A stretch of 64,000 nt of DNA from Siphonodentalium dalli (lineage: Eukaryota > Mollusca > Scaphopoda > Gadilida > Siphonodentaliidae): contig CP136065.1 in NCBI GenBank assembly GCA_032622095.1, forward strand, positions 60,507,094 to 60,571,093, in the 5' to 3' direction. Below, piece by piece: positions 1 to 57,154 of the stretch. A program made the translations under genes and the position numbers. The first letter of the stretch is position 1; each line of letters starts with the position of its first letter. The notes below the pieces were generated by a model. The model was given only the letters and a program-made list of their open reading frames with translations, did no database searches and was not told where the DNA came from.

Positions 1-32
1 ACAGTGATGATGATGATGCTGATGGCGATATA

Positions 33-3000
33 ATGATGATTACGATGTTATATTATGACGGTGATGATGATGCTGATGGCGATATAATGATGATTATGAT
101 GTTATATTATGACGGTGATGATGATGCTGATGGCGATATAATGATGATAACGATGTTATATTATGACAGTGATGATGATGATGCTGATGGCGATATAATG
201 ATGATAACGATGTTATATTATGACAGTGATGATGATGCTGATGGCGATATAATGATGATAACGATGTTATATTATGACGGTGATGATGATGATGCTGATG
301 GCGATATAATGATGATAACGATGTTATATTATGACAGTGATGATGATGCTGATGGCGATATAATGATGATAACGATGTTATATTATGACGGTGATGATGA
401 TGATGCTGATGGCGATATAATGATGACTATGATGTTATATTATGACGGAGATAATGATGATGCTGATGGCGATATAATGATGATTATGATGTTATATTAT
501 GACGGTGATGATGATGCTGATGGCGATATAATGATGATAACGATGTTATATTATGACGGTGATGATGATGATGCTGATGGCGATATAATGATGATAACGA
601 TGTTATATTATGACAGTGATGATGATGCTGATGGCGATATAATGATGATTATGATGTTATATTATGACGGTGATGATGATGATGCTGATGGCGATATAAT
701 GATGATTATGATGTTATATTATGACGGTGATGATGATGCTGATGGCGATATAATGATGATAACGATGTTATATTATGACAGTGATGATGATGATGCTGAT
801 GGCGATATAATGATGATAACGATGTTATATTATGACGGTGATGATGATGCTGATGGCGATATAATGATGATAACGATGTTATATTATGACAGTGATGATG
901 ATGATGCTGATGGCGATATAATGATGATAACGATGTTATATTATGACAGTGATGATGATGCTGATGGCGATATAATGATGATAACGATGTTATATTATGA
1001 CAGTGATGATGATGATGCTGATGGCGATATAATGATGATAACGATGTTATATTATGACAGTGATGATGATGATGCTGATGGCGATATAATGATGATAACG
1101 ATGTTATATTATGACGGTGATGATGATGCTGATGGCGATATAATGATGATAACGATGTTATATTATGACAGTGATGATGATGATGCTGATGGCGATATAA
1201 TGATGATAACGATGTTATATTATGACGGTGATGATGATGCTGATGGCGATATAATGATGATAACGATGTTATATTATGACAGTGATGATGATGCTGATGG
1301 CGATATAATGATGATAACGATGTTATATTATGACGGAGATGATGATGATGATGGTGGCGATATAATGATGATAACGATGTTATATTATGACGGTGATGAT
1401 GATGCTGATGGCGATATAATGATGACTATGATGTTATATTATGACGGAGATGATGATGCTGATGGCGATATAATGATGATAACGATGTTATATTATGACG
1501 GTGATGATGATGATGCTGATGGCGATATAATGATGATAACGATGTTATATTATGACGGTGATGATGATGATGATGGTGGCGATATAATGATGACTATGAT
1601 GTTATATTATGACGGAGATAATGATGATGCTGATGGCGATATAATGATGATTATGATGTTATATTATGACGGTGATGATGATGATGCTGATGGCGATATA
1701 ATGATGATTATGATGTTATATTATGACGGTGATGATGATGCTGATGGCGATATAATGATGATTATGATGTTATATTATGACGGTGATGAAGATGATGCTG
1801 ATGGCGATATAATGTTGATAACGATGTTATATTATGACGGTGATGATGATGCTGATGGCGATATAATGATGATAACGATGTTATATTATGACGGTGATGA
1901 TGATGCTGATGGCGATATAATGATGATAACGATGTTATATTATGACGGTGATGATGATGATGCTGATGGCGATATAATGATGATAACGATGTTATATTAT
2001 GACGGTGATGATGATGATGCTGATGGCGATATAATGATGATTATGATGTTATATTATGACGGTGATGATGATGCTGATGGCGATATAATGATGATAACGA
2101 TGTTATATTATGACGGTGATGATGATGCTGATGGCGATATAATGATGATAACGATGTTATATTATGACAGTGATGATGATGATGCTGATGGCGATATAAT
2201 GATGATAACGATGTTATATTATGACGGTGATGATGATGCTGATGGCGATATAATGATGATAACGATGTTATATTATGACAGTGATGATGATGCTGATGGC
2301 GATATAATGATGATAACGATGTTATATTATGACGGAGATGATGATGATGATGGTGGCGATATAATGATGATAACGATGTTATATTATGACGGTGATGATG
2401 ATGCTGATGGCGATATAATGATGACTATGATGTTATATTATGACGGAGATGATGATGCTGATGGCGATATAATGATGATAACGATGTTATATTATGACGG
2501 TGATGATGATGATGCTGATGGCGATATAATGATGATAACGATGTTATATTATGACGGTGATGATGATGCTGATGGCGATATAATGATGATAACGATGTTA
2601 TATTATGACGGTGATGATGATGATGCTGATGGCGATATAATGCTGATAACGATGTTATATTATGACGGTGATGATGATGATGATGGCGATATAATGATGA
2701 TTATGATGTTATATTATGACAGTGATGATGATGATGCTGATGGCGATATAATGATGATAACGATGTTATATTATGACAGTGATGATGATGCTGATGGCGA
2801 TATAATGATGATAACGATGTTATATTATGACGGTGATGATGATGATGATGGTGGCGATATAATGATGATAACGATGTTATATTATGACGGTGATGATGAT
2901 GCTGATGGCGATATAATGATGACTATGATGTTATATTATGACGGAGATGATGATGCTGATGGCGATATAATGATGATAACGATGTTATATTATGACGGTG

Positions 3001-6000
3001 ATGATGATGATGCTGATGGCGATATAATGATGATAACGATGTTATATTATGACGGTGATGATGATGATGCTGATGGCGATATAATGATGATAACGATGTT
3101 ATATTATGACGGTGATGATGATGATGCTGATGGCGATATAATGATGATAACGATGTTATATTATGACGGTGATGATGATGATGCTGATGGCGATATAATG
3201 ATGATTATGATGTTATATTATGACAGTGATGATGATGCTGATGGCGATATAATGATGATAACGATGTTATATTATGACGGTGATGATGATGATGCTGATG
3301 GCGATATAATGATGATAACGATGTTATATTATGACGGTGATGATGATGATGCTGATGGCGATATAATGATGATAACGATGTTATATTATGACGGTGATGA
3401 TGATGATGCTGATGGCGATATAATGATGATTATGATGTTATATTATGACAGTGATGATGATGCTGATGGCGATATAATGATGATAACGATGTTATATTAT
3501 GACGGTGATGATGATGATGCTGATGGCGATATAATGATGATAACGATGTTATATTATGACGGTGATGATGATGATGCTGATGGCGATATAATGATGATAA
3601 CGATGTTATATTATGACAGTGAAGATGATGATGCTGATGGCGATATAATGATGACTATGATGTTATATTATGACGGAGATGATGATGCTGATGGCGATAT
3701 AATGATGATAACGATGTTATATTATGACGGTGATGATGATGATGCTGATGGCGATATAATGATGATAACGATGTTATATTATGACGGTGATGATGATGAT
3801 GCTGATGGCGATATAATGATGATAACGATGTTATATTATGACGGTGATGATGATGATGCTGATGGCGATATAATGATGATAACGATGTTATATTATGACG
3901 GTGATGATGATGATGCTGATGGCGATATAATGATGATAACGATGTTATATTATGACGGTGATGATGATGATGCTGATGGCGATATAATGATGATTATGAT
4001 GTTATATTATGACAGTGATGATGATGCTGATGGCGATATAATGATGATAACGATGTTATATTATGACGGTGATGATGATGATGCTGATGGCGATATAATG
4101 ATGATAACGATGTTATATTATGACGGTGATGATGATGATGCTGATGGCGATATAATGATGATAACGATGTTATATTATGACAGTGAAGATGATGATGCTG
4201 ATGGCGATATAATGATGATAACGATGTTATATTATGACGGAGATGATGATGCTGATGGCGATATAATGATGATAACGATGTTATATTATGACGGTGATGA
4301 TGATGATGCTGATGGCGATATAATGATGATTATGATGTTATATTATGACGGTGATGATGATGCTGATGGCGATATAATGATGATAACGATGTTATATTAT
4401 GACGGTGATGATGATGATGCTGATGGCGATATAATGATGATAACGATGTTATATTATGACGGTGATGATGATGATGCTGATGGCGATATAATGATGATAA
4501 CGATGTTATATTATGACGGTGATGATGATGCTGATGGCGATATAATGATGATTATGATGTTATATTATGACGGAGATGATGATGCTGATGGCGATATAAT
4601 GATGATTATGATGTTATATTATGACGGAGATGATGATGCTGATGGCGATATAATGATGATTATGATGTTATATTATGACGGTGATGATGATGCTGATGGC
4701 GATATAATGATGATTATGATGTTATATTATGACGGTGATGATGATGCTGATGGCGATATAATGATGATAACGATGTTATATTATGACGGTGATGATGATG
4801 ATGCTGATGGCGATATAATGATGATAACGATGTTATATTATGACGGTGATGATGATGATGCTGATGGCGATATAATGATGATAACGATGTTATATTATGA
4901 CAGTGATGATGATGATGCTGATGGCGATATAATGATGATAACGATGTTATATTATGACAGTGATGATGATGATGCTGATGGCGATATAATGATGATAACG
5001 ATGTTATATTATGACAGTGATGATGATGCTGATGGCGATATAATGATGATAACGATGTTATATTATGACGGTGATGATGATGATGCTGATGGCGATATAA
5101 TGATGATTATGATGATATATTATGATGGTGATGATGATGATGATGATGGCGATATAATGATGATAACGATGTTATATTATGACGGTGATGATGATGCTGA
5201 TGGCGATATAATGATGATTATGATGTTATATTATGACGGAGATGATGATGCTGATGGCGATATAATGATGATTATGATGTTATATTATGACGGTGATGAT
5301 GATGCTGATGGCGATATAATGATGATAACGATGTTATATTATGACGGTGATGATGATGATGCTGATGGCGATATAATGATGATAACGATGTTATATTATG
5401 ACAGTGATGATGATGATGCTGATGGCGATATAATGATGATAACGATGTTATATTATGACGGTGATGATGATGATGCTGATGGCGATATAATGATGATAAC
5501 GATGTTATATTATGACGGTGATGCTGATGATGCTGATGGCGATATAATGATGATAACGATGTTATATTATGACAGTGATGATGATGATGCTGATGGCGAT
5601 ATAATGATGATAACGATGTTATATTATGACAGTGATGATGATGCTGATGGCGATATAATGATGATAACGATGTTATATTATGACGGTGATGATGATGATG
5701 CTGATGGCGATATAATGATGATTATGATGATATATTATGATGGTGATGATGATGATGATGATGGCGATATAATGATGATAACGATGTTATATTATGACGG
5801 TGATGATGATGCTGATGGCGATATAATGATGATTATGATGTTATATTATGACGGTGATGATGATGCTGATGGCGATATAATGATGATAACGATGTTATAT
5901 TATGACGGTGATGATGATGCTGATGGCGATATAATGATGATTATGATGTTATATTATGACGGTGATGATGATGCTGATGGCGATATAATGATGATAACGA

Positions 6001-8549
6001 TGTTATATTATGACAGTGATGATGATGATGCTGAGGGCGATATAATGATGATAACGATGTTATATTATGACGGTGATGATGATGATGCTGATGGCGATAT
6101 AATGATGATTATGATGTTATATTATGACAGTGATGATGATGCTGATGGCGATATAATGATGATAACGATGTTATATTATGACAGTGATGATGATGCTGAT
6201 GGCGATATAATGATGATAACGATGTTATATTATGACAGTGATGATGATGCTGATGGCGATATAATGATGATAACGATGTTACATTATGACGGTGATGATG
6301 ATGATGCTGATGGCGATATAATGATGATAACGATGTTATATTATGACGGTGATGATGATGCTGATGGCGATATAATGATGATTATGATGTTATATTATGA
6401 CGGAGGTGATGATGATGCTGATGGCGATATAATGATGATAACGATGTTATATTATGACGGTGATGATGATGCTGATGGCGATATAATGATGATAACGATG
6501 TTATATTATGACGGTGATGATGATGCTGATGGCGATATAATGATGATTATGATGTTATATTATGACGGTGATGATGATGCTGATGGCGATATAATGATGA
6601 TTATGATGTTATATTATGACGGAGATGATGATGATGCTGATGGCGATATAATGATGATAACGATGTTATATTATGACAGTGATGATGATGCTGATGGCGA
6701 TATAATGATGATAACGATGTTATATTATGACAGTGATGATGATGATGATGGCGATATAATGATGATAACGATGTTATATTATGACGGTGATGATGATGCT
6801 GATGGCGATATAATGATGATTATGATGTTATATTATGACGGTGATGATGATGATGCTGATGGCGATATAATGATGATAACGATGTTATATTATGACGGAG
6901 ATGATGATGATGCTGATGGCGATATAATGATGATTATGATGTTATATTATGACGGTGATGATGATGCTGATGGCGATATAATGATGATTATGATGTTATA
7001 TTATGACGGAGATGATGATGCTGATGGCGATATAATGATGATAACGATGTTATATTATGACGGTGATGATGATGATGCTGATGGCGATATAATGATGATT
7101 ATGATGTTATATTATGACGGTGATGATGATGCTGATGGCGATATAATGATGATTATGATGTTATATTATGACGGATATGATGATGCTGATGGCGATATAA
7201 TGATGATAACGATGTTATATTATGACGGAGATGATGATGATGATGGCGATATAATGATGATTACGATGTTATATTATGACGGTGATGATGATGCTGATGG
7301 CGATATAATGATGATTACGATGTTATATTATGACGGTGATGATGATGATGATGGCGATATAATGATGATAACGATGTTATATTATGACAGTGATGATGAT
7401 GCTGATGGCGATATAATGATGATTACGATGCTATATTATGACGGAGATGATGATGATGATGGCGATATAATGATGATTACGATGCTATATTATGACGGTG
7501 ATGATGATGATGATGATGGCGATATAATGATGATTATGATGTTATATTATGACGGTGATGATGATGATGCTGATGGCGATATAATGATGATTACGATGTT
7601 ATATTATGACGGTGATGATGATGATGATGCTGATGGCGATATAATGATGATTACGATGTTATATTATGACGGTGATGATGATGATGCTGATGGCGATATA
7701 ATGATGATTATGATGTTATATTATGACGGTGATGATGATGATGGCGATATAATGATGATTATGATGTTATATTATGACGGTGATGATGATGATGCTGATG
7801 GCGATATAATGATGATTACGATGTTATATTATGACGGTGATGATGATGATGCTGATGTCGATATAATGATGATTATGATGTTATATTATGACGGTGATGA
7901 TGATGCTGATGGCGATATAATGATGATTATGATGTTATATTATGACGGTGATGATGATGCTGATGGCGATATAATGATGATTACGATGTTATATTATGAT
8001 GGTGATGATGATGATGCTGATGTCGATATAATGATGATTATGATGTTATATTATGACGGTGATGATGATGCTGATGGCGATATAATGATGATTACGATGT
8101 TATATTATGACGGAGATGATGATGATGATGGCGATATAATGATGATTATGATGTTATATTATGACGGAGATGATGATGCTGATGGCGATATAATGATGAT
8201 TATGATGTTATATTATGACGGTGATGATGATGCTGATGGCGATATAATGATGATTATGATGTTAAATTATGACGGTGATGATGATGCTGACGGCGATATA
8301 ATGATGATTACGATGCTATATTATGACGGTGATGATGATGATGCTGATGGCGATATAATGATGATTACGATGGTATATTATGACAGTGATGATGATGCTG
8401 ACGGCGATATAATGATGATTATGATGTTATATTATGACGGTGATGATGATGATGCTGATGGCGATATAATGATGATTATGATGTTATATTATGACAGTGA
8501 TGATGATGCTGATGGCGATATAATGATGATGATGCTGATGGCGATATAA
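33..8549 (+). other. Longest array ORF, 2,838 codons, probably not a gene
   Basis: This continuous forward reading frame lies wholly within the minisatellite. It is made only of 17-20-residue repeats alternating a hydrophobic part (MMITMLYY) with an acidic part (DGDDDADGD). It ends when a truncated 26-bp unit at 8,517-8,542 shifts the frame. The next ORF starts at the ATG that overlaps the stop (TAATG). There is no signal peptide, no unique N terminus and no domain. If translated it would be an extremely Asp-rich, Met-rich polypeptide. Asp-rich repeat proteins are known in mollusc shells, but nothing here links it to them. I treat it as a by-product of the repeat unit. Confidence 0.3.
8517..8542 (+). 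repeat. Truncated 26-bp array unit (frame-shift junction type a)
   Basis: Here the unit jumps from the ATG run after ATA straight into the GAT-GCT-GAT-GGC end, leaving 26 bp. This moves the repeat frame by 26 mod 3 = 2. The frame then reads LMAI and stops at TAA, and ATG restarts one base later. The same junction ends the open frames at 8,549, 8,794, 10,971, 11,600, 15,690, 19,711 and 20,490. A 20-bp version ends those at 14,581 and 18,725. A 44-bp version ends those at 23,366 and 25,609. Confidence 0.9.
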
Positions 8550-9032
8550 TGATGATAACGATGTTATATTATGACGGTGATGATGATGATGCTGACGGCG
8601 ATATAATGATGATAACGATGTTATATTATGACGGTGATGATGATGATGACGGCGATATAATGATGATTATGATGTTATATTATGACAGTGATGATGATGC
8701 TGATGGCGATATAATGATGATTATGATGTTATATTATGACGGTGATGATGATGCTGATGGCGATATAATGATGATGATGCTGATGGCGATATAATGATGA
8801 TAACGATGTTATATTATGACGGTGATGATGATGATGCTGACGGCGATATAATGATGATAACGATGTTATATTATGACGGTGATGATGATGATGACGGCGA
8901 TATAATGATGATTATGATGTTATATTATGACAGTGATGATGATGCTGATGGCGATATAATGATGATTATGATGTTATATTATGACGGTGATGATGATGCT
9001 GATGGCGATATAATGATGATAATGATGTTATA
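8543..9032 (+). repeat. 245-bp tandem duplication inside the array
   Basis: The block starting at the ATG near 8,549 is repeated from 8,794, including a DDDDD unit, a DS unit and the truncated junction. The two copies encode the same unit order, so this is a recent tandem duplication of about four and a half units. Confidence 0.85.
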
Positions 9033-10970
9033 TTATGACGGTGATGATGATGATGATGGCGATATAATGATGATTATGATGTTATATTATGACGGTGATG
9101 ATGATGATGCTGATGGCGATATAATGATGATTATGATGTTATATTATGACGGTGATGATGATGCTGATGGCGATATAATGATGATTATGATGTTATATTA
9201 TGACGGTGATGATGATGCTGATGGCGATATAATGATGATTATGATGTTATATTATGACGGTGATGATGATGATGCTGATGGCGATATAATGATGATAACG
9301 ATGTTATATTATGACGGAGATGATGATGCTGATGGCGATATAATGATGATTTCGATGTTATATTATGACGGTGATGATGATGATGCTGATGTCGATATAA
9401 TGATGATTATGATATTATATTATGACGGTGATGATGATGATGATGGCGATATAATGATGATTATGATGTTATATTATGACGGTGATGATGATGCTGATGG
9501 CGATATAATGATGATTACGATGCTATATTATGACGGAGATGATGATGATGATGGCGATATAATGATGATAACGATGTTATATTATGACGGTAATGATGAT
9601 GCTGATGGCGATATAATGATGATTATGATGTTATATTATGACGGTGATGATGATGCTGATGGCGATATAATGATGATTATGATGTTATATTATGACGGTG
9701 ATGATGATGATGCTGAGGGCGATATAATGATGATAACGATGTTATATTATGACGGTGATGATGATGCTGATGGCGATATAATGATGATTATGATGTTATA
9801 TTATGACGGTGATGATGATGCTGATGGCGATATAATGATGATTATGATGTTATATTATGACGGAGATGATGATGATGCTGATGGCGATATAATGATGATT
9901 ACGATGTTATATTATGACGGAGATGATGATGATGCTGATGGCGATATAATGATGATAACGATGTTATATTATGACGGTGATGATGATGCTGATGGCGATA
10001 TAATGATGATTATGATGTTATATTATGACGGTGATGATGATGCTGATGGCGATATAATGATGATTATGATGTTATATTATGACGGAGATGATGATGATGC
10101 TGATGGCGATATAATGATGATTATGATGTTATATTATGACGGTGATGATGATGCTGATGGCGATATAATGATGATAACGATGTTATATTATGACGGTGAT
10201 GATGATGCTGATGGCGATATAATGATGATTATGATGTTATATTATGACGGTGATGATGATGCTGATGGCGATATAATGATGATAATGATGTTATATTATG
10301 ACGGTGATGATGATGATGCTGATGGCGATATAATGATGATAACGATGTTATATTATGACGGTGATGATGATGATGCTGATGGCGAAATAATGATGATTAT
10401 GATGTTATATTATGACGGTGATGATGATGATGCTGATGGCGATATAATGATGATTACGATGTTATATTATGACGGTGATGATGATGATGCTGATGGCGAT
10501 ATAATGATGATTACGATGTTATATTATGACGGTGATGATGATGTTGACGGCGATATAATGATGATTATGATGTTATATTATGACGGTGATGATGATGATG
10601 CTGATGGCGATATAATGATGATTATGATGTTATATTATGACGGTGATGATGATGATGCTGATGGCGATATAATGATGATTATGATGTTATATTATGACGG
10701 TGATGATGATGCTGATGGCGATATAATGATGATGATTTCGATGTTATATTATGACAGTGATGATGATGCTGATGGCGATATAATGATGATTATGATGTTA
10801 TATTATGACGGTGATGATGATGCTGATGGCGATATAATGATGATTATGATGTTATATTATGACAGTGATGATGATGCTGATGGCAATATAATGATGATTA
10901 TGATGTTATATTATGACAGTGATGATGATGCTGATGGCGATATAATGATGATGATGCTGATGGCGATATA

Positions 10971-13900
10971 ATGATGATAACGATGTTATATTATGACGGT
11001 GATGATGATGATGCTGATGGCGATATAATGATGATTATGATGTTATATTATGACGGTGATGATGATGATGCTGATGGCGATATAATGATGATTATGATGT
11101 TATATTATGACGGAGATGATGATGCTGATGGCGATATAATGATGATTACGATGTTATATTATGACGGTGATGATGGTGATATAATGATGATGATTATGAT
11201 GTTATATTATGACGGTGATGATGATGATGCTGATGGCGATATAATGATGATTATGATGTTATATTATGACGGTGATGATGATGATGCTGATGGCGATATA
11301 ATGATGATTATGATGTTATATTATGACGGTGATGATGATGCTGATGGCGATATAATGATGATGATTTCGATGTTATATTATGACAGTGATGATGATGCTG
11401 ATGGCGATATAATGATGATTATGATGTTATATTATGACGGTGATGATGATGCTGATGGCGATATAATGATGATTATGATGTTATATTATGACAGTGATGA
11501 TGATGCTGATGGCGATATAATGATGATTATGATGTTATATTATGACAGTGATGATGATGCTGATGGCGATATAATGATGATGATGCTGATGGCGATATAA
11601 TGATGATTACGATGTTATATTATGACGGTGATGATGATGCTGACGGCGATATAATGATGATTATGATGTTATATTATGACGGTGATGATGATGATGCTGA
11701 TGGCGATATAATGATGATTATGATGTTATATTATGACGGTGATGATGATGATGCTGATGGCGATATAATGATGATTATGATGTTATATTATGACGGAGAT
11801 GATGATGCTGATGGCGATATAATGATGATTATGATGTTATATTATGACAGTGATGATGATGCTGATGGCGATATAATGATGATTATGATGTTATATTATG
11901 ACGGGGATGATGATGCTGATGGCGATATAATGATGATTATGATGTTATATTATGACGGAGATGATGATGCTGATGGCGATATAATGATGATTATGATGTT
12001 ATATTATGACGGTGATGATGATGATGCTGATGGCGATATAATGATGATTACGATGCTATATTATGACGGAGATGATGATGATGCTGATGGCGATATAATG
12101 ATGATTATGATGTTATATTATGACGGAGATGATGATGCTGATGGCGATATAATGATGATAACGATGTTATATTATGACGGAGATGATGATGCTGATGGCG
12201 ATATAATGATGATTATGATGTTATATTATGACGGAGATGATGATGCTGATGGCGATATAATGATGATTATGACGTTATATTATGACGGTGATGATGATGC
12301 TGATGGCGATATAATGATGATTATGATGTTATATTATGACGGTGATGATGATGATGCTGATGGCGATATAATGGTGATTATGATGTTATATTATGACGGT
12401 GATGATGATGATGCTGATGGCGATATAATGATGATTATGATGTTATATTATGACGGTGATGATGATGATGCTGATGGCGATATAATGATGATTATGATGT
12501 TATATTATGACGGTGATGATGATGATGCTGATGGCGATATAATGATGATTATGATGTTATATTATGACGGTGATGATGATGATGCTGATGGCGATATAAT
12601 GATGATTATGATGTTATATTATGACGGAGATGATGATGCTGATGGCGATATAATGATGATTATGATGTTATATTATGACGGTGATGATGATGATGCTGAT
12701 GGCGATATAATGATGATTACGATGCTATATTATGAAGGAGATGATGATGCTGATGGCGATATAATGATGATTATGATGTTATATTATGACGGTGATGATG
12801 ATGATGCTGATGGCGATATAATGATGATTATGATGTTATATTATGACGGAGATGATGATGCTGATGGCGATATAATGATGATTATGATGTTATATTATGA
12901 CGGTGATGATGATGATGCTGATGGCGATATAATGATGATTATGATGTTATATTATGACGGTGATGATGATGCTGATGGCGATATAATGATGATTATGATG
13001 TTATATTATGACGGTGATGATGATGCTGATGGCGATATAATGATGATGATTTCGATGTTATATTATGACAGTGATGATGATGCTGATGGCGATATAATGA
13101 TGATTATGATGTTATATTATGACGGTGATGATGATGCTGATGGCGATATAATGATGATTATGATGTTATATTATGACAGTGATGATGATGCTGATGGCGA
13201 TATAATGATGATTATGATGTTATATTATGACAGTGATGATGATGCTGATGGCGATATAATGATGATTATGATGTTATATTATGACGGTGATGATGGTGCT
13301 GATGGCGATATAATGATGATGATTTCGATGTTATATTATGACGGTGATGATGATGCTGATGGCGATATAATGATGATTATGATGTTATATTATGATGGTG
13401 ATGATGATGCTGAAGGCGATATAATGATGATTATGATGTTATATTATGACGGTGATGATGATGCTGATGGCGATATAATGATGATTTCGATGTTATATTA
13501 TGACAGTGATGATGATGCTGATGGCAATATAATGATGATTATGATGTTATATTATGACGGAGATGATGATGCTGATGGCGATATAATGATGATTATGATG
13601 TTATATTATGACGGAGATGATGATGCTGATGGCGATATAATGATGATTATGATGTTATATTATGACGGAGATGATGATGCTGATGGCGATATAATGATGA
13701 TAACGATGTTATATTATGACGGTGATGATGATGGTGATGGCGATATAATGATGATTACGATGCTATATTATGACGGAGATGATGATGCTGATGGCGATAT
13801 AATGATGATTATGATGTTATATTATGACGGTGATGATGATGCTGATGGCGATATAATGATGATTATGATGTTATATTATGACGGAGATGATGATGCTGAT

Positions 13901-16900
13901 GGCGATATAATGATGATAACGATGTTATATTATGACGGAGATGATGATGCTGATGGCGATATAATGATGATTATGATGTTACATTATGACGGTGATGATG
14001 ATGCTGATGGCGATATAATGATGATTATGATGTTATATTATGACGGAGATGATGATGCTGATGGCGATATAATGATGATTATGATGTTATATTATGACGG
14101 AGATGATGATGCTGATGGCGATATAATGATGATTATGATGTTATATTATGACGGTGATGATGATGCTGATGGCGATATAATGATGATGATTACGATGTTA
14201 TATTATGACGGTGATGATGATGATGCTGATGGCGATATAATGATGATTATGATGTTATATTATGACGGTGATGATGATGCTGATGGCGATATAATGATGA
14301 TTATGATGTTATATTATGACGGAGATGATGATGCTGATGGCGATATAATGATGATTATGATGTTATATTATGACAGTGATGATGATGCTGATGGCGATAT
14401 AATGATGATTATGATGTTATATTATGACGGTGATGATGATGCTGATGGCGATATAATGATGATTACGATGTTATATTATGACGGAGATGATGATGATGGC
14501 GATATAATGATGATTATGATGTTATATTATGACGGTGATGATGATGCTGATGGCGATATAATGATGCTGATGGCGATATAATGATGATTATGATGTTATA
14601 TTATGACGGAGATGATGATGCTGATGGCGATATAATGATGATTACGATGTTATATTATGACGGTGATGATGCTGATGGCGATATAATGATGATTATGATG
14701 TTATATTATGACAGTGATGATGATGCTGATGGCGATATAATGATGATTATGATGTTATATTATGACGGTGATGATGATGATGCTGATGGCGATATAATGA
14801 TGATTATGATGTTATATTATGACGGTGATGATGATGCTGATGGCGATATAATGATGATTATGATGTTATATTATGACAGTGATGATGATGCTGATGGCGA
14901 TATAATGATGATTACGATGCTATATTATGACGGAGATGATGATGCTGATGGCGATATAATGATGATTATGATGTTATATTATGACGGTGATGATGCTGAT
15001 GGCGATATAATGATGATTATGATGTTATATTATGACAGTGATGATGATGCTGATGGCGATATAATGATGATTATGATGTTATATTATGACAGTGATGATG
15101 ATGCTGATGGCGATATAATGATGATTATGATGTTATATTATGACGGTGATGATGATGATGCTGATGGCGATATAATGATGATTATGATGTTATATTATGA
15201 CGGAGATGATGATGCTGATGGCGATATAATGATGATTACGATGTTATATTATGACGGTGATGATGGTGATATAATGATGATGATTATGATGTTATATTAT
15301 GACGGTGATGATGATGATGCTGATGGCGATATAATGATGATTATGATGTTATATTATGACGGTGATGATGATGATGCTGATGGCGATATAATGATGATTA
15401 TGATGTTATATTATGACGGTGATGATGATGCTGATGGCGATATAATGATGATGATTTCGATGTTATATTATGACAGTGATGATGATGCTGATGGCGATAT
15501 AATGATGATTATGATGTTATATTATGACGGTGATGATGATGCTGATGGCGATATAATGATGATTATGATGTTATATTATGACAGTGATGATGATGCTGAT
15601 GGCGATATAATGATGATTATGATGTTATATTATGACAGTGATGATGATGCTGATGGCGATATAATGATGATGATGCTGATGGCGATATAATGATGATTAC
15701 GATGTTATATTATGACGGTGATGATGATGATGCTGATGGCGATATAATGATGATTATGATGTTATATTATGACGGTGATGATGATGATGCTGATGGCGAT
15801 ATAATGATGATTATGATGTTATATTATGACGGAGATGATGATGCTGATGGCGATATAATGATGATTATGATGTTATATTATGACAGTGATGATGATGCTG
15901 ATGGCGCTATAATGATGATTATGATGTTATATTATGACGGGGATGATGATGCTGATGGCGATATAATGATGATTATGATGTTATATTATGACGGAGATGA
16001 TGATGCTGATGGCGATATAATGATGATTATGATGTTATATTATGACGGTGATGATGATGATGCTGATGGGGATATAATGATGATTACGATGCTATATTAT
16101 GACGGAGATGATGATGATGCTGATGGCGATATAATGATGATTATGATGTTATATTATGACGGAGATGATGATGCTGATGGCGATATAATGATGATAACGA
16201 TGTTATATTATGACGGAGATGATGATGCTGATGGCGATATAATGATGATTATGATGTTATATTATGACGGAGATGATGATGCTGATGGCGATATAATGAT
16301 GATTATGATGTTATATTATGACGGTGATGATGATGCTGATGGCGATATAATGATGATTATGATGTTATATTATGACGGTGATGATGATGATGCTGATGGC
16401 GATATAATGGTGATTATGATGTTATATTATGACGGTGATGATGATGATGCTGATGACGATATAATGATGATTATGATGTTATATTATGACGGTGATGATG
16501 ATGATGCTGATGGCGATATAATGATGATTATGATGTTATATTATGACGGTGATGATGATGATGCTGATGGCGATATAATGATGATTATGATGTTATATTA
16601 TGACGGTGATGATGATGATGCTGATGGCGATATAATGATGATTATGATGTTATATAATGACGGTGATGATGATGCTGATGGCGATATAATGATGATTATG
16701 ATGTTATATTATGACGGTGATGATGATGCTGATGGCGATATAATGATGATTATGATGTTATATTATGACGGTGATGATGATGCTGATGGCGATATAATGA
16801 TGATTATGATGTTATATTATGACGGTGATGATGATGATGCTGATGGCGATATAATGATGATTACGATGCTATATTATGAAGGAGATGATGATGCTGATGG

Positions 16901-19260
16901 CGATATAATGATGATTATGATGTTATATTATGACGGTGATGATGATGATGCTGATGGCGATATAATGATGATTATGATGTTACATTATGACGGAGATGAT
17001 GATGCTGATGGCGATATAATGATGATTATGATGTTATATTATGACGGTGATGATGATGATGCTGATGGCGATATAATGATGATTATGATGTTATATTATG
17101 ACGGTGATGATGATGCTGATGGCGATATAATGATGATTATGATGTTATATTATGACGGTGATGATGATGCTGATGGCGATATAATGATGATGATTTCGAT
17201 GTTATATTATGACAGTGATGATGATGCTGATGGCGATATAATGATGATTATGATGTTATATTATGACGGTGATGATGATGCTGATGGCGATATAATGATG
17301 ATTATGATGTTATATTATGACAGTGATGATGATGCTGATGGCGATATAATGATGATTATGATGTTATATTATGACAGTGATGATGATGCTGATGGCGATA
17401 TAATGATGATTATGATGTTATATTATGACGGTGATGATGGTGCTGATGGCGATATAATGATGATGATTTCGATGTTATATTATGACGGTGATGATGATGC
17501 TGATGGCGATATAATGATGATTATGATGTTATATTATGATGGTGATGATGATGCTGAAGGCGATATAATGATGATTATGATGTTATATTATGACGGTGAT
17601 GATGATGCTGATGGCGATATAATGATGATTTCGATGTTATATTATGACAGTGATGATGATGCTGATGGCAATATAATGATGATTATGATGTTATATTATG
17701 ACGGAGATGATGATGCTGATGGCGATATAATGATGATTATGATGTTATATTATGACGGAGATGATGATGCTGATGGCGATATAATGATGATTATGATGTT
17801 ATATTATGACGGAGATGATGATGCTGATGGCGATATAATGATGATAACGATGTTATATTATGACGGTGATGATGATGGTGATGGCGATATAATGATGATT
17901 ACGATGCTATATTATGACGGAGATGATGATGCTGATGGCGATATAATGATGATTATGATGTTATATTATGACGGTGATGATGATGCTGATGGCGATATAA
18001 TGATGATTATGATGTTATATTATGACGGAGATGATGATGCTGATGGCGATATAATGATGATAACGATGTTATATTATGACGGAGATGATGATGCTGATGG
18101 CGATATAATGATGATTATGATGTTACATTATGACGGTGATGATGATGCTGATGGCGATATAATGATGATTATGATGTTATATTATGACGGAGATGATGAT
18201 GCTGATGGCGATATAATGATGATTATGATGTTATATTATGACGGAGATGATGATGCTGATGGCGATATAATGATGATTATGATGTTATATTATGACGGTG
18301 ATGATGATGCTGATGGCGATATAATGATGATGATTACGATGTTATATTATGACGGTGATGATGATGATGCTGATGGCGATATAATGATGATTATGATGTT
18401 ATATTATGACGGTGATGATGATGCTGATGGCGATATAATGATGATTATGATGTTATATTATGACGGAGATGATGATGCTGATGGCGATATAATGATGATT
18501 ATGATGTTATATTATGACAGTGATGATGATGCTGATGGCGATATAATGATGATTATGATGTTATATTATGACGGTGATGATGATGCTGATGGCGATATAA
18601 TGATGATTACGATGTTATATTATGACGGAGATGATGATGATGGCGATATAATGATGATTATGATGTTATATTATGACGGTGATGATGATGCTGATGGCGA
18701 TATAATGATGCTGATGGCGATATAATGATGATTATGATGTTATATTATGACGGAGATGATGATGCTGATGGCGATATAATGATGATTACGATGTTATATT
18801 ATGACGGTGATGATGCTGATGGCGATATAATGATGATTATGATGTTATATTATGACAGTGATGATGATGCTGATGGCGATATAATGATGATTATGATGTT
18901 ATATTATGACGGTGATGATGATGATGCTGATGGCGATATAATGATGATTATGATGTTATATTATGACGGTGATGATGATGCTGATGGCGATATAATGATG
19001 ATTATGATGTTATATTATGACAGTGATGATGATGCTGATGGCGATATAATGATGATTACGATGCTATATTATGACGGAGATGATGATGCTGATGGCGATA
19101 TAATGATGATTATGATGTTATATTATGACGGTGATGATGCTGATGGCGATATAATGATGATTATGATGTTATATTATGACAGTGATGATGATGCTGATGG
19201 CGATATAATGATGATTATGATGTTATATTATGACAGTGATGATGATGCTGATGGCGATAT
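10971..19260 (+). repeat. Higher-order duplication, period about 4.1 kb
   Basis: The unit order from about 11,020 to 15,110 is repeated from about 15,110 to 19,260. The junction at 11,600 pairs with 15,690 (offset 4,090) and 14,581 pairs with 18,725 (offset 4,144; the extra 54 bp is one unit). Rare markers recur at the same relative place: the MMMISML units, the GDDGADG unit, the AEGD unit, a YYEGD unit, a MLHYD unit and the 20-bp junction. A shorter block of about 630 bp (10,740-10,971 against 11,370-11,600) repeats the same run of MMMISML and DS units. Confidence 0.85.
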
Positions 19261-19269
19261 AATGATGAT

Positions 19270-20830
19270 TATGATGTTATATTATGACGGTGATGATGAT
19301 GCTGATGGCGATATAATGATGATTATGATGTTATATTATGACGGAGATGATGATGCTGATGGCGATATAATGATGATTATGATGTTATATTATGACGGTG
19401 ATGATGATGCTGATGGCGATATAATGATGATTACGATGCTATATTATGACGGAGATGATGATGCTGATGGCGATATAATGATGATTATGATGTTATATTA
19501 TGACGGAGATGATGATGCTGATGGCGATATAATGATGATTATGATGTTATATTATGACGGTGATGATGATGCTGATGGCGATATAATGATGATTACGATG
19601 CTATATTATGACGGTGATGATGATGCTGATGGCGATATAATGATGATTATGATGTTATATTATGACGGAGATGATGGTGATATAATGATGATGATGCTGA
19701 TGGCGATATAATGATGATTATGATGTTATATTATGACGGAGATGATGATGCTGATGGCGATATAATGATGATTACGATGTTATATTATGACGGAGATGAT
19801 GATGCTGATGGCGATATAATGATGATTACGATGTTATATTATGACGGTGATGATGATGCTGATGGCGATATAATGATGATTACGATGCTATATTATGACG
19901 GTGATGATGATGCTGATGGCGATATAATGATGATTATGATGTTATATTATGACGGTGATGATGATGACGCTGATGGCGATATAATGATGATTATGATGTT
20001 ATATTATGACGGTGATGATGATGATGCTGATGGCGATATAATGATGATTATGATGTTATATTATGACGGTGATGATGATGCTGATGGCGATATAATGATG
20101 ATTATGATGTTATATTATGACGGAGATGATGATGCTGATGGCGATATAATGATGATTATGATGTTATATTATGACGGTGATGATGATGCTGATGGCGATA
20201 TAATGATGATTACGATGCTATATTATGACGGAGATGATGATGCTGATGGCGATATAATGATGATTATGATGTTATATTATGACGGAGATGATGATGCTGA
20301 TGGCGATATAATGATGATTATGATGTTATATTATGACGGTGATGATGATGCTGATGGCGATATAATGATGATTACGATGCTATATTATGACGGTGATGAT
20401 GATGCTGATGGCGATATAATGATGATTATGATGTTATATTATGACGGAGATGATGGTGATATAATGATGATGATGCTGATGGCGATATAATGATGATTAT
20501 GATGTTATATTATGACGGAGATGATGATGCTGATGGCGATATAATGATGATTACGATGTTATATTATGACGGAGATGATGATGCTGATGGCGATATAATG
20601 ATGATTACGATGTTATATTATGACGGTGATGATGATGCTGATGGCGATATAATGATGATTACGATGCTATATTATGACGGTGATGATGATGCTGATGGCG
20701 ATATAATGATGATTATGATGTTATATTATGACGGTGATGATGATGACGCTGATGGCGATATAATGATGATTATGATGTTATATTATGACGGTGATGATGA
20801 TGATGCTGATGGCGATATAATGATGATTAT
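19270..20830 (+). repeat. Tandem duplication, period 779 bp, inside the array
   Basis: The junctions at 19,711 and 20,490 are 779 bp apart and the units on both sides match. A rare synonymous GAC before GCT (near 19,967 and 20,746) marks both copies. Confidence 0.85.
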
Positions 20831-20839
20831 GATGTTATA

Positions 20840-22000
20840 TTATGACGGTGATGATGATGATGATGATGGCGATATAATGATGATTATGATGTTATATTAT
20901 GACGGTGATGATGATGATGCTGATGGCGATATAATGATGATTATGATGTTATTTTATGACGGAGATGATGATGCTGATGGCGATATAATGATGATTATGA
21001 TGTTATATTATGACGGAGATGATGATGCTGATGGCGATATAATGATGATTACGATGTTATATTATGACGGTGATGATGATGCTGATGGCGATATAATGAT
21101 GATTATGATGTTATATTATGACGGTGATGATGATGCTTATGGCGATATAATGATGATTATGATGTTATATTATGCCGGTGATGATGATGCTGATGGCGAT
21201 ATAATGATGATTATGATGTTATATTATGACGGTGATGATGATGATGCTGATGGCGATATAATGATGATTATGATGTTATATTATGACGAAGATGATGATG
21301 ATGCTGATGGCGATATAATGATGATTATGATGTTATATTATGACGGTGATGATGATGCTGATGGCGATATAATGATGATTATGATGTTATATTATGACGG
21401 TGATGATGATGATGCTGATGGCGATATAATGATGATTATGATGTTATATTATGACGGAGATGATGATGATGCTGATGGCGATATAATGATGATTATGATG
21501 TTATATTATGACGGTGATGATGATGATGCTGATGGCGATATAATGATGATTATGATGTTATATTATGACGGTGATGATGATGATGCTGATGGCGATATAA
21601 TGATGATTATGATGTTATATTATGACGGAGATGATGATGATGCTGATGGCGATATAATGATGATTATGATGTTATATTATGACGGTGATGATGATGATGC
21701 TGATGGCGATATAATGATGATTATGATGTTATATTATGACGGTGATGATGATGATGATGATGGCGATATAATGATGATTATGATGTTATATTATGACGGT
21801 GATGATGATGATGCTGATGGCGATATAATGATGATTATGATGTTATTTTATGACGGAGATGATGATGCTGATGGCGATATAATGATGATTATGATGTTAT
21901 ATTATGACGGAGATGATGATGCTGATGGCGATATAATGATGATTACAATGTTATATTATGACGGTGATGATGATGATGCTGATGGCGATATAATGATGAT
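20840..22000 (+). repeat. Repeated block with LFYD marker, period about 894 bp
   Basis: A DDDDDD unit, a standard unit and then a unit with TTTTAT (reading LFYD) occur near 20,850-20,970 and again near 21,745-21,865. This indicates another internal duplication. Confidence 0.7.
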
Positions 22001-22729
22001 TATGATGTTATATTATGACGGAGATGATGATGATGCTGATGGCGATATAATGATGATTATGATGTTATATTATGACGGTGATGATGATGATGCTGATGGC
22101 GATATAATGATGATTATAATGTTATATTATTACGGTGATGACGATGCTGATGGCGATATAATGATGATTATGATGTTATATTATGATGGAGATGATGATG
22201 ATGATGATGATGGCGATATAATGATGATTACGATGTTATATTATGACGGTGATGATGATGATGCTGATGGCGATATAATGATGATTATGATGTTATATTA
22301 TGACGGAGATGATGATGATGCTGATGGCGATATAATGATGATTATGATGTTATATTATGACGGTGATGATGATGCTGATGGCGATATAATGATGATTATG
22401 ATGTTATATTATGACAGTGATGATGATGCTGATCGCGATATAATGATGATTATGATGTTATATTATGACGGTGATGATGATGCTGATGGCGATATAATGA
22501 TGATGATTATGATGTTATATTATGACGGTGATGATGATGATGCTGATGGCGATATAATGATGATTATGATGTTATATTATGACGGAGATGATGATGATGC
22601 TGATGGCGATATAATGATGATTATGATGTTATATTATGACGGAGATGATGATGATGCTGATGGCGATATAATGATGATTATGATGTTATATTATGACGGT
22701 GATGATGATGCTGATGGCGATATAATGAT

Positions 22730-25700
22730 GATTATGATGTTATATTATGACAGTGATGATGATGCTGATGGCGATATAATGATGATTATGATGTTATATT
22801 ATGACGGTGATGATGATGCTGATGGCGATATAATGATGATGATTATGATGTTATATTATGACGGTGATGATGATGCTGATGGCGATATAATGATGATTAT
22901 GATGTTATATTATGACGGTGATGATGATGCTGATGGCGATATAATGATGATTATGATGTTATATTATGACGGTGATGATGATGCTGATGGCGATATAATG
23001 ATGATTATGATGTTATATTATGACAGTGATGATGATGATGCTGATGGCGATATAATGATGATTACGATGTTATATTATGACCGTGATGATGATGATGCTG
23101 ATGGCGATATAATGATGATTACGATGCTATTTTATGACGGAGATGATGATGATGATGGCGATATAATGATGATTATGATGTTATATTATGACAGTGATGA
23201 TGATGCTGATGGCGATATAATGATATATTATGATGGTGATGATGATGATGATGATGGCGATATAATGATGATTATGATGTTATATTATGACAGTGATGAT
23301 GATGCTGATGGCGATATAATGATGATTATGATGGTGATGATGATGATGATGATGATGGCGATATAATGATGATTATGATGTTATATTATGACGGTGATGA
23401 TGATGCTGATGGCGATATAATGATATGTTATGATGGTGATGATGATGATGATGATGGCGATATAATGATGATTATGATGTTATATTATGACGGTGATGAT
23501 GATGATGCTGATGGCGATATAATGATGATTATGATGTTATATTATGACGGTGATGATGATGCTGATGGCGATATAATGATGATTATGATGTTATATTATG
23601 ACGGAGATGATGATGATGATGGCGATATAATGATGATTATGATGTTATATTATGACGGTGATGATGATGATGCTGATGGCGATATAATGATGATTATGAT
23701 GTTATATTATGACGGTGATGATGATGATGCTGATGGCGATATAATGATGATTATGATGTTATATTATGACGGTGATGATGATGATGCTGATGGCGATATA
23801 ATGATGATTATGATGTTATATTATGACGGTGATGATGATGCTGATGGCGATATAATGATGATTATGATGTTATATTATGACGGAGATGATGATGATGCTG
23901 ATGGCGATATAATGATGATTATGATGTTATATTATGACGGTGATGATGATGATGCTGATGGCGATATAATGATGATTATGATGTTATATTATGACGGAGA
24001 TGATGATGATGATGGCGATATAATGATGATTACGATGTTATATTATGACGGTGATGATGATGATGCTGATGGCGATATAATGATGATTATGATGTTATAT
24101 TATTGCGGTGATGATGATGCTGATGGCGATATAATGATGATTATGATGTTATATTATGACGGTGATGATGATGATGCTGATGGCGATATAATGATGATTA
24201 TGATGTTATATTATGACGGAGATGATGATGATGCTGATGGCGATATAATGATGATTACGATGTTATATTATGACGGTGATGATGATGATGCTGATGGCGA
24301 TATAATGATGATTATGATGTTATATTATGACGGTGATGATGATGATGCTGATGGCGATATAATGATGATTATGATGTTATATTATGACGGTGATGATGAT
24401 GATGCTGATGGCGATATAATGATGATTATGATGTTATATTATGACGGTGATGATGATGATGCTGATGGCGATATAATGATGACTATGATGTTATATTATG
24501 ACGGTGATGATGATGATGATGATGGCGATATAATGATGATTACGATGTTATATTATGACGGTGATGATGATGATGCTGATGGCGATATAATGATGATTAT
24601 GATGTTATATTATGACGGTGATGATGATGATGCTGATGGCGATATAATGATGATTATGATGTTATATTATGACGGTGATGATGATGCTGATGGCGATATA
24701 ATGATGATTATGATGTTATATTATGACAGTGATGATGATGCTGATGGCGATATAATGATGATTATGATGTTATATTATGACGGTGATGATGATGCTGATG
24801 GCGATATAATGATGATGATTATGATGTTATATTATGACGGTGATGATGATGCTGATGGCGATATAATGATGATTATGATGTTATATTATGACGGTGATGA
24901 TGATGCTGATGGCGATATAATGATGATTATGATGTTATATTATGACGGTGATGATGATGCTGATGGCGATATAATGATGATTATGATGTTATATTATGAC
25001 AGTGATGATGATGATGCTGATGGCGATATAATGATGATTACGATGTTATATTATGACGGTGATGATGATGCTGATGGCGATATAATGATGATTACGATGC
25101 TATTTTATGACAGTGATGATGATGCTGATGGCGATATAATGATATATTATGATGGTGATGATGATGATGATGATGATGGCGATATAATGATGATTATGAT
25201 GTTATATTATGACGGTGATGATGATGCTGATGGCGATATAATGATGATTATGATGTTATATTATGATGGTGATGATGATGATGCTGATGGCGATATAATG
25301 ATGATTATGATGTTATATTATGATGGTGATGATGATGATGCTGATGGCGATATAATGATGATTACGATGTTATATTATGACGGTGATGATGATGATGATG
25401 GCGATATAATGATGATTATGATGTTATATTATGACAGTGATGATGATGCTGATGGCGATATAATGATATATTATGATGGTGATGATGATGATGATGATGG
25501 CGATATAATGATGATTATGATGTTATATTATGACAGTGATGATGATGCTGATGGCGATATAATGATGATTATGATGGTGATGATGATGATGATGATAATG
25601 GCGATATAATGATGATTATGATGCTATATTATGACGGTGATGATGATGCTGATGGCGATATAATGATATGTTATGATGGTGATGATGATGATGATGATGG

Positions 25701-26960
25701 CGATATAATGATGATTATGATGTTATATTATGACGGTGATGATGATGATGCTGATGGCGATATAATGATGATTATGATGTTATATTATGACGGTGATGAT
25801 GATGCTGATGGCGATATAATGATGATTATGATGTTATATTATGACGGAGATGATGATGATGATGGCGATATAATGATGATTATGATGTTATATTATGACG
25901 GTGATGATGATGATGCTGATGGCGATATAATGATGATTATGATGTTATATTATGACGGTGATGATGATGATGCTGATGGCGATATAATGATGATTATGAT
26001 GTTATATTATGACGGTGATGATGATGATGCTGATGGCGATATAATGATGATTATGATGTTATATTATGACGGTGATGATGATGCTGATGGCGATATAATG
26101 ATGATTATGATGTTATATTATGACGGAGATGATGATGATGCTGATGGCGATATAATGATGATTATGATGTTATATTATGACGGTGATGATGATGATGCTG
26201 ATGGCGATATAATGATGATTATGATGTTATATTATGACGGAGATGATGATGATGATGGCGATATAATGATGATTACGATGTTATATTATGACGGTGATGA
26301 TGATGATGCTGATGGCGATATAATGATGATTATGATGTTATATTATGACGGTGATGATGATGCTGATGGCGATATAATGATGATTATGATGTTATATTAT
26401 GACGGTGATGATGATGATGCTGATGGCGATATAATGATGATTATGATGTTATATTATGACGGAGATGATGATGATGCTGATGGCGATATAATGATGATTA
26501 CGATGTTATATTATGACGGTGATGATGATGATGCTGATGGCGATATAATGATGATTATGATGTTATATTATGACGGTGATGATGATGATGCTGATGGCGA
26601 TATAATGATGATTATGTGTTATATTATGACGGTGATGATGATGATGCTGATGGCGATATAATGATGATTATGATGTTATATTATGACGGTGATGATGATG
26701 ATGCTGATGGCGATATAATGATGACTATGATGTTATATTATGACGGTGATGATGATGATGATGATGGCGATATAATGATGATTACGATGTTATATTATGA
26801 CGGTGATGATGATGATGCTGATGGCGATATAATGATGATTATGATGTTATATTATGACGGTGATGATGATGATGCTGATGGCGATATAATGATGATTATG
26901 ATGTTATATTATGACGGAGATGATGATGATGATGGCGATATAATGATGATTACGATGTTA
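22730..26960 (+). repeat. Tandem duplication, period about 2,243 bp, inside the array
   Basis: The junctions at 23,366 and 25,609 are 2,243 bp apart and both end in a run of ATG codons. Downstream, the short unit with ATATGTTATGATGG and the ACTATG unit followed by a DDDDDD unit (near 24,480 and 26,721) keep the same spacing. The copies differ by a few substitutions, for example TATTGCGG near 24,102 in the first copy only. Confidence 0.85.
26605..26625 (+). repeat. Single-base deletion in an array unit
   Basis: The usual ATTATGATGTTATAT reads ATTATGTGTTATAT here, one A short. This is the only isolated 1-bp indel I see in the array, and it shifts the open frame. Confidence 0.85.
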
Positions 26961-29900
26961 TATTATGACGGTGATGATGATGATGCTGATGGCGATATAA
27001 TGATGATTATGATGTTATATTACGATGGAGATGATGATGCTGATGGCGATATAATGATGATTATGATGTTATATTATGACGGAGATGATGATGATGCTGA
27101 TGGCGATATAATGATGATTATGATGTTATATTATGACGGAGATGATGATGCTGATGGCGATATAATGATGATTATGATGTTATATTACGATGGAGATGAT
27201 GATGCTGATAGCGATATAATGATGATTATGATGTTATATTATGACGGAGATGATGATGATGCTGATGGCGATATAATGATGATTATGATGTTATATTATG
27301 ACGGTGATGATGATGCTGATGGCGATATAATGATGATTATGATGTTATATTATGACGGTGATGATGATGCTGATGGCGATATAATGATGATTATGATGTT
27401 ATATTATGACGGTGATGATGATGATGCTGATGGCGATATAATGATGATTACGATGTTATATTATGATGGTGATGATGATGATGCTGATGGCGATATAATG
27501 ATGATTATGATGTTATATTATGACGGTGAAGATGATGATGCTGATGGCGATATAATGATGATTACGATGTTATATTATGACGGTGATGATGATGATGCTG
27601 ATGGCGATATAATGATGATTATGATGTTATATTATGAAGGTGATGATGATGATGCTGATGGCGATATAATGATGATTATGATGCTATTTTATGACGGAGA
27701 TGATGATGCTGATGGCGATAAAATGATGATTACGATGTTATATTATGATGGTGATGATGATGATGCTGATGGCGATATAATGATGATTATGATGTTATAT
27801 TATGACGGTGATGATGATGATGCTGATGGCGATATAATGATGATTACGATGTTATATTATGACGGTGATGATGATGATGCTGATGGCGATATAATGATGA
27901 TTATGATGTTATATTATGACGGTGATGATGATGCTGATGGCGATATAATGATGATTATGATGTTATATTATGACGGTGATGATGATGATGCTGATGGCGA
28001 TATAATGATGATTATGATGTTATATTATGACGGTGATGATGATGCTGATGGCGATATAATGATGATTACGATGTTATATTATGACGGAGATGATGATGCT
28101 GATGGCGATATAATGATGATTATGATGTTATATTATGACGGAGATGATGATGATGATGGCGATATAATGATGATTATGATGTTATATTATGACGGTGATG
28201 ATGATGCTGATGGCGATATAATGATGATTACGATGTTATATTATGATGGTGATGATGATGATGCTGATGGCGATATAATGATGATTATGATGTTATATTA
28301 TGACGGTGATGATGATGATGCTGATGGCGATATAATGATGATTATGATGTTATATTATGACGGTGATGATGATGATGCTGATGGCGATATAATGATGATT
28401 ACGATGTTATATTATGACGGTGATGATGATGCTGATGGCGATATAATGATGATTATGATGTTATATTATGACGGAGATGATGATGATGCTGATGGCGATA
28501 TAATGATGATTATGATGTTATATTATGACGGCGATGATGATGCTGATGGCGATATAATGATGACTATGATGATATATTATGACGGTGATGATGATGATGG
28601 CGATATAATGATGATTATGATGTTATATTATGACGGTGATGATGATGCTGATGGCGATATAATGATGACTATGATGATATATTATGACGGTGATGATGAT
28701 GATGCTGATGGCGATATAATGATGATTATGATGCTATATTATGACGGAGATGATGATGCTGATGGCGATATAATGATGATAACGATGTTATATTATGACG
28801 GTGATGATGATGATGCTGATGGCGATATAATGATGATTATGATGTTATATTATGACGGAGATGATGATGCTGATGGCGATATAATGATGATTATGATGTT
28901 ATATTATGACGGTGATGATGATGATTCTGATGGCGATATAATGATGATTACGATGTTATATTATGACGGTGATGATGATGCTGATGGCGATATAATGATG
29001 ATTACGATGTTATATTATGACGGTGATGATGATGATGATGATGGCGATATAATGATGATTATGATGTTATATTATGACGGTGATGATGATGATGCTGATG
29101 GCGATATAATGATGATTACGATGTTATATTATGACGGTGATGATGATGCTGATGGCGATATAATGATGATTACGATGTTATATTATGACGGTGATGATGA
29201 TGCTGATGGCGATATAATGATGATTATGATGTTATATTATGACGGTGATGATGATGATGCTGATGGCGATATAATGATGATTATGATGTTATATTATGAC
29301 GGAGATGATGATGATGCTGATGGCGATATAATGATGATTATGATGTTATATTATGACGGAGATGATGATGATGATGGCGATATAATGATGATTATGATGT
29401 TATATTATGACGGTGATGATGATGCTGATGGCGATATAATGATGATTATGATGTTATATTATGACGGTGATGATGATGATGCTGATGGCGATATAATGAT
29501 GATTATGATGTTATATTATGACGGTGATGATGATGCTGATGGCGATATAATGATGATTATGATGTTATATTATGACGGTGATGATGATGCTGATGGCGAT
29601 ATAATGATGATGATTATGATGTTATATTATGATGGTGATGATGATGATGCTGATGGCGATATAATGATGATTATGATGTTATATTATGACGGTGATGATG
29701 GCGATATAATGATGACTATGATGTTATATTATGACGGTGATGATGATGCTGATGGCGATATAATGATGATTATGATGTTATATTATGACGGCGACGATGG
29801 CGATATAATGATGACTATGATGTTATATTATGACGGTGATGATGTTGCTGATGGCGATATAATGATGATGATTATGATGTTATATTATGACGGTGATGAT

Positions 29901-30840
29901 GCTGATGCATGGCGATATAATGATGATAACGATGTTATATTATGACGGTGATGATGATGCTGATGGCGATATAATGATGATTATGATGTTATATTATGAC
30001 GGTGATGATGATGCTGATGGCGATATAATGATGACGATTATGATGTTATATAATGACGGTTATGATGATGCTGATGGCGATATAATGATGATGATTATGA
30101 TGTTACATTATGACGGTGATGATGATGCTGATGGCGATATAATGATGATGATTATGATGTTATATTATGACGGAGATGATGATGCTGATGGCGATATAAT
30201 GATGATGATTATGATGTTATATAATGACGGTTATGATGATGCTGATGGCGATATAATGATGACGATTATGATGTTATATAATGACGGTTATGATGATGCT
30301 GATGGCGATATAATGATGATGATTATGATGTTATATTATGACGGTGATGATGATGCTGATGGCGATATAATGGTGACGATTATGATGTTATATAATGACG
30401 GTTATGATGATGCTGATGGCGATATAATGATGATTATGATGTTATATTATGACGGTGATGTTGATGCTGATGGCGATATAATGATGATGATTATGATGTT
30501 ATATTATGACGGTGATGATGGTGATATAATGATGATGATTATGATGTTATATTATGACGGTGATGATGGTGATATAATGATGATGATTATGATGTTATAT
30601 TATGACGGTGATGATGATGCTGATGGCGATATAATGATGATGATTATGATATTATATTATGACGGTGATGATGATGCTGATGGCGATATAATGATGACGA
30701 TTATGATGTTATATAATGACGGTTATGATGATGCTGATGGCGATATAATGATGATGATTATGATGTTATATTATGACGGTGGTGATGATAGCGATATAAT
30801 GATGATGATTATGGTGTTATATTTTGACGGTGGTGATGAC

Positions 30841-31085
30841 GAACGCAGAGATAATACGATGACTCTGACGACGACAACGGCAGATGATGTTGACGACGAC
30901 GATGAAGATGACGACGACAAATGATGTTGATATCGATTATGACGATAATTATGAAGGTGGTAATGATGAGAATGTTTCGGATGGCGATGATAATGACGAC
31001 GATGGAAGCGATTATTATTATTATTATTATTATGATAGCGATAATGGCGATGATGATGATGACGATGATAATGATAGTAGAATTC
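30841..31085 (+). repeat. Degenerate GAC/GAT/ATT-rich right flank of the array
   Basis: The 54-bp periodicity dissolves into imperfect GAC, GAT and GAA triplets, then a run of ATT repeats (31,011-31,033) and more GAT/GAC. The array's open frame ends here at 30,924 with an Asp-rich tail. It looks like the ancestral simple-sequence edge from which the array could have grown. Confidence 0.75.
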
Positions 31086-32176: not shown

Positions 32177-32319
32177 AAAGAAGGACAAGCACAGCAGGAC
32201 TGAAGTCCATTAATGCTTTAGCGTTTACGACGAAAGGTTCTTTTGGATTTTGTTGGGAGTCGACTTGAATACCGAAAGCGACACTAGCAATCACGTCCAA
32301 GGAATACTGGCCACTGGCA
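32177..32319 (-). CDS. P450 exon 7: DVIAS-x-AFG, last exon seen
   Basis: Acceptor ATTTTGTAG and donor GTGAGT, 143 bp. It encodes SGQYSLDVIASVAFGIQVDS and then QQNPKEPFV, followed by a run toward FSPAVLVLL. This is the helix-E/F block. It leaves one base for the next exon, which is not identified in the 1.1 kb before the array. Confidence 0.93.
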
Positions 32320-57093: not shown

Positions 57094-57154
57094 AATCATA
57101 AGTGATAACTGCTGGGAGGATCCAGTTAGTAAAGAAACGGTTTAAATCAATCCT

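Follow-up and report, generated by a model that had tools for sequence, protein, structure and literature searches.

The long open reading frame at the start of this stretch is very probably not translated into protein: it belongs to a minisatellite that seems to occur at one place only and that would have grown within a single intron of a CYP3-like cytochrome P450 gene. We regard the array as an ordinary intronic minisatellite of unusually large size. The window, i.e., the whole stretch of DNA analysed, comprises 64,000 bp (C5:60507094-60571093) from a genome whose 9 contigs total 2.23 Gb; coordinates follow the numbering of the window, and negative values denote positions before its base 1. 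The place of the array and its orientation antisense to the gene (Table 1), its unit structure, its large internal duplications and the lack of a coding signature in its substitutions are shown by the analysis.

Table 1. Position of the array and of the predicted exons and intron of its host gene (window coordinates).
Feature	Coordinates	Strand	Basis and remarks
Minisatellite array, part within the window	1..30845	+	TRF, upstream DNA, genome pattern count, wrap-around alignment; start near C5:60502763
Degenerate GAT/GAC-rich tract adjoining the array	30846..31090	+	Read directly
First P450 exon modelled, E1 (97 bp)	38700..38796	-	Splice sites, PF00067 and CYP3A7 match; exons before E1 lie outside the model
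P450 exon E2 (120 bp)	34147..34266	-	Splice sites, PF00067 and CYP3A7 match
P450 exon E3 (89 bp)	32771..32859	-	Splice sites, PF00067 and CYP3A7 match
P450 exon E4 (143 bp), the last exon before the array-bearing intron when read along the gene	32177..32319	-	Splice sites, PF00067 and CYP3A7 match
P450 exon E5, outside the window	-5165 to -5035	-	Splice sites, PF00067 and CYP3A7 match
Array-bearing P450 intron (37,211 bp)	-5034 to 32176 (in window 1..32176)	-	Donor GTGAGT beside E4, acceptor TTACAG beside E5

Structure and copy number of the array

Within the window, TRF reported one array (4-30839; period 54, 556 copies, 91% matches). With the upstream DNA added, the repeat was found to begin ~4.33 kb ahead of base 1 and to end at ~30845, giving a total of ~35.2 kb. 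Wrap-around alignment of the whole array to a 54-bp consensus resolved 643 units (partial ones counted), mostly 54 or 57 bp long, with 797 mismatches in 34,262 aligned bases. The preliminary description of a minisatellite of more than 30 kb with about 550 units of 54/57 bp was thus real, but of the extent given there (1-30924) neither end holds, as the array starts earlier and it is the final open frame, not the repeat, that ends with its stop codon at 30924. These head-to-tail tandem units lie within the size range of minisatellites or VNTRs (~10-100 bp, as given in the excerpted text of PMC3152781). The degenerate tract that follows the last unit is likely what is left of the simple repeat that gave rise to the array.

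Several large segments of the array are present twice. Of the units that shift the frame, those at 11574 and 14560 have counterparts at 15664 and 18704 (offsets of 4090, one unit less, and 4144, respectively), the one at 19669 recurs at 20448 (offset 779), and those at 23333 and 23424 recur at 25576 and 25667 (offset 2243), while runs of identical units show equal offsets of 4144, 779, and 2243. Since frame-shifting units recur at the offsets of the duplications (4.1, 2.2, and 0.8 kb), broken units were copied on. Long tandem arrays are difficult to assemble, and either the copy number or the large duplications could therefore be wrong; we consider such an artefact very unlikely, as the copies of the three duplications differ from each other (37 mismatches in 4 kb, 40 in 2.2 kb, and 8 in 0.76 kb, gaps aside), the 643 units comprise 163 distinct sequences, and the window contains no N.

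A 38-base pattern of the unit, searched across the whole genome with at most 3 mismatches, gave 590 forward and 0 reverse matches, the first 100 of which all lay at the array locus. The same pattern was counted 590 times in the upstream piece and the window together, so that the remaining matches must also be located there. A second unit pattern (344 forward and 0 reverse matches in the genome) behaved likewise, all of the matches listed being at the array locus. The array seems to occur once in this 2.2-Gb genome, and on the agreement between genomic and local counts a dispersed satellite DNA family with arrays at many loci was rejected. A genome-wide DNA search that disregards highly frequent words, and whose matches did not include the array itself, returned 111 weaker GAT-rich matches (72-82% identity); the four of these loci that were viewed, 450 bases each, were degenerate GAT-rich tracts (L001 being partly masked outside those bases). 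Pure (GAT)12 had 2,083 overlapping matches on the two strands of the genome and its reversed control 3,299: GAT-rich tracts are abundant in this genome, yet GAT is not special.

The host gene and its intron

Five exons on the minus strand, bordered by AG acceptor and GT donor sites, form a continuous open frame when joined, and their 193-aa product matches PF00067 (E 2.4e-22) and has CYP3A7 as the best of 16 solved sequences (E 3.4e-33). The alignment with CYP3A7 crosses the E4/E5 junction, interrupted by a gap of just 2 residues close to it, which suggests that the model skips no exon at this point. Beyond E5, a motif scan listed 10 minus-strand ORFs, four of which were given to Pfam; three matched PF00067 over the cut-off (positions 257-309, 341-387, and 386-440, in gene order), and the fourth had no Pfam match. 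One of the matching ORFs carries PFGYGPRSCIAM, which we take to be the haem-binding cysteine motif of P450s. These matches, in ORFs that stand outside the five-exon model, indicate that the gene continues to its haem-binding region. With PF00067 over the cut-off and the cysteine motif both present, the host is, judging by sequence similarity, a CYP3-like cytochrome P450 gene.

The array makes up ~94% of the 37.2-kb intron between E4 and E5, with exons of one gene, splice sites, and a continuous frame on both sides, the splicing itself being predicted. Because the host exons flanking the array are all on the minus strand, the Asp/Met-rich frame of the array is antisense to the host gene. An array that fills nearly a whole intron could, while non-coding, act on its host, its length or unit types altering P450 transcription or splicing; we hold this to be unlikely. 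Two consensus units folded unremarkably in gene sense (z +0.65), which speaks against such an effect, and on this value together with that of the plus strand (z -0.97) we rejected the possibility that the repeat works through a strong RNA hairpin. A scenario in which this 35-kb intronic minisatellite, as a single-locus repeat that varies in length, would adjust the expression level of the CYP3-like P450 gene, or would give an antisense, partly translated repeat RNA from the intron, is similarly unlikely.

Rearranged and partly inverted copies of the P450 region were seen at C5:60607000-60632000 (L013-L015), their longer pieces being 81-98% identical. One copy that includes E4 and a portion of E3 at 98% identity (C5:60.61-60.63 Mb) stops 4 bases into the array-bearing intron, and neither an empty (array-free) intron nor a match to E5 was found in the paralogous copies of C5:60.61-60.63 Mb. 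Three weaker E4-like matches are located elsewhere in the genome.

Origin of the open frame

On the plus strand and with the upstream DNA included, the longest stop-free stretch reaches 3,441 codons (-1776 to 8549), while in the window alone the first open frame runs for 2,848 codons from the window edge to its stop. The frame is rich in Asp and Met and would encode the repeat peptide DGDDDADGDIMMIMMLYY. One strand and frame had been described as open for up to 2,838 codons; the strand and the great length were confirmed, but the frame is split into 15 stop-to-stop stretches of at least 100 codons across all three forward frames, and no uninterrupted frame spans the array. The last stretch of 348 codons, the sole stretch searched, was without a Pfam match.

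The wrap-around alignment of the whole array contained 330 indel events. In line with the earlier statement that length variants come almost only in steps of three, 308 of them were multiples of three (288 being +3), and 22 were frame-shifting, the last of which, at the array end, may be an edge effect. The GAT slippage proposed at the same time was borne out: 216 of the 288 +3 insertions were letter-for-letter rotations of GAT, and 218 fell on a single position within the unit. In the consensus unit, a stop is created by only 6 of the 162 single-base changes that are possible, and together with the added GAT triplet as the commonest length change this scarcity would explain why a frame stays open for thousands of codons.

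Selection was assessed by randomly dealing each base change to the same bases of the unit. For types seen in ≤ 3 units, 8 synonymous, 39 replacement, and 1 stop-making substitution types were observed vs. 7.8, 38.6, and 1.6 expected; cut-offs of 1, 8, and no limit likewise agreed with the no-selection expectation, and the chance of so few stop types was 0.21-0.84. Replacement and stop changes are thus not fewer than chance would produce, and the substitutions among units carry no coding signature and fit no selection, in agreement with the earlier remark that frequent replacement changes speak against constraint. Unit positions 24-36 looked poor in substitutions, which was judged by hand to be within chance.

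How readily a frame of this length arises was less clear from neutral simulations, which treat all positions of the unit as equally mutable and duplications as simple, and whose accepted runs were matched to the diversity of the array (run counts reaching 3,441 codons were worked back from printed shares). In 6,000 runs (145 accepted), at least 3,441 codons were reached in 11/145 (10/56, 1/52, and 0/37 for rising indel rates), and in a tighter-matched set with transition bias (36,000 runs, 48 accepted), 3,441 codons were reached in 7/48 (5/14, 2/15, and 0/19). Most accepted neutral runs had more than 22 broken units; the observed number or fewer (≤ 22) occurred in 20%, 2%, and 0% of the 145-run set and in 29%, 7%, and 5% of the 48-run set, again for rising indel rates. 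At most one stop-bearing unit, as observed, occurred in 3-8% and 7-16% of the two sets, respectively, depending on the indel setting. A first simulation, tuned to the mean differences per unit alone, reached 3,441 codons or more in 0-13% of runs, depending on the setting, with medians of 62-173 broken units; it was set aside for its poor calibration, since the differences are mostly accounted for by a small number of variants that many units share. Under these simple neutral models, the frame length and the few breaks fall in the tail, and a weak avoidance of frame breaks may be involved. The substitutions agree with the view that stop-free units can do this without selection, but the ease with which such a length is attained was only weakly borne out, a minority of neutral runs reaching it.

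It is in this light that the coding alternative has to be weighed, in which the plus-strand frame would be a genuine gene or exon, lying antisense within the P450 intron and encoding a repeat protein rich in Asp and Met. The sheer length of the longest stretch, its rarity among the neutral runs, the low number of indels that are not multiples of three (22/330), and a single stop-making substitution in the consensus frame are what such a gene would predict, but synonymous, replacement, and stop types stand at the no-selection expectation, the frame lies in 15 stretches with broken units copied on, the one stretch searched lacks a Pfam match, and the excess of +3 steps is mainly GAT slippage. 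We rejected a coding repeat gene on the broken frame, the frame-shifting units, and the substitutions, and consider it extremely improbable. The view of the preliminary description that the repeat is most likely a satellite is supported by the same substitutions, by the GAT rotations among the +3 steps, and by the position of the array in an intron, antisense to the P450 gene.

Formation of the array, related systems and other repeats

The non-coding minisatellite could have originated from a GAT-rich simple repeat, of a kind common in this genome, within the P450 intron, where a founding unit of ~54 bp would by chance have had one stop-free frame. Growth would have proceeded by slippage and unequal exchange, with block sizes from one triplet to several kb; blocks at offsets of 779 to 4,144 bp were duplicated, and their copies now differ slightly. 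The open frame would then be a by-product of units with lengths in multiples of three, and in the host gene the array would be transcribed, if at all, as its reverse complement and then spliced out.

Closest in kind is the 30-bp VNTR (TRACT) in an intron of human CACNA1C, for which the excerpted text of PMC13131567 gives a size of 3-30+ kb, unit variants one base apart, and an inferred expansion through repeat tracts. Both are intronic minisatellites of similar size with unit variants one base apart, whereas TRACT differs in its unit (30 bp vs. 54/57 bp here), in its gene, and in that population variation is known there while one genome was analysed here; of the two, only the present array was examined for an extended open frame on one strand. 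Tandem repeats also fill most of the introns of Drosophila kl-3 and kl-5, whose gigantic introns contain megabases of simple satellites (excerpt of PMC6508621), in contrast to the 35 kb of one minisatellite found here. Compared with coding minisatellites or megasatellites, the frame in this array is repeatedly broken, shows no selection in its substitutions, and runs antisense in an intron. For gene prediction, the array is a warning: where units are stop-free and their lengths are multiples of three, an intron may contain, antisense to its gene, a frame that stays open over more than 3,400 codons. In addition, the array offers a natural case for the growth of a short repeat to 35 kb inside a P450 gene, some steps of which are recorded in the internal duplications.

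The remainder of the window contains further tandem repeats. At 57146-59094, 53 copies of a 26-bp unit pass directly into 13 copies of a 47-bp unit, and the longer unit includes the greater part of the shorter one. Although its unit length is not divisible by three, the 26-bp array keeps one forward frame free of stops for 453 codons, an observation in favour of the non-coding reading of the large array; the other two forward frames have 2 stops each and the reverse frames 63-75. A 34-bp tandem array (44215-44835; 18 copies, 97% matches) is not open, having 12 stops per forward frame and 23-24 per reverse frame. Three related blocks of ~122-bp repeats, with 55-56-bp repeats between them, are located at 52863-54360. 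By eye, the ORF at 42219-42680 (minus strand) resembles a retroelement zinc-knuckle protein, and that at 38074-38665 (plus strand) the reverse-transcriptase end of a retroelement.
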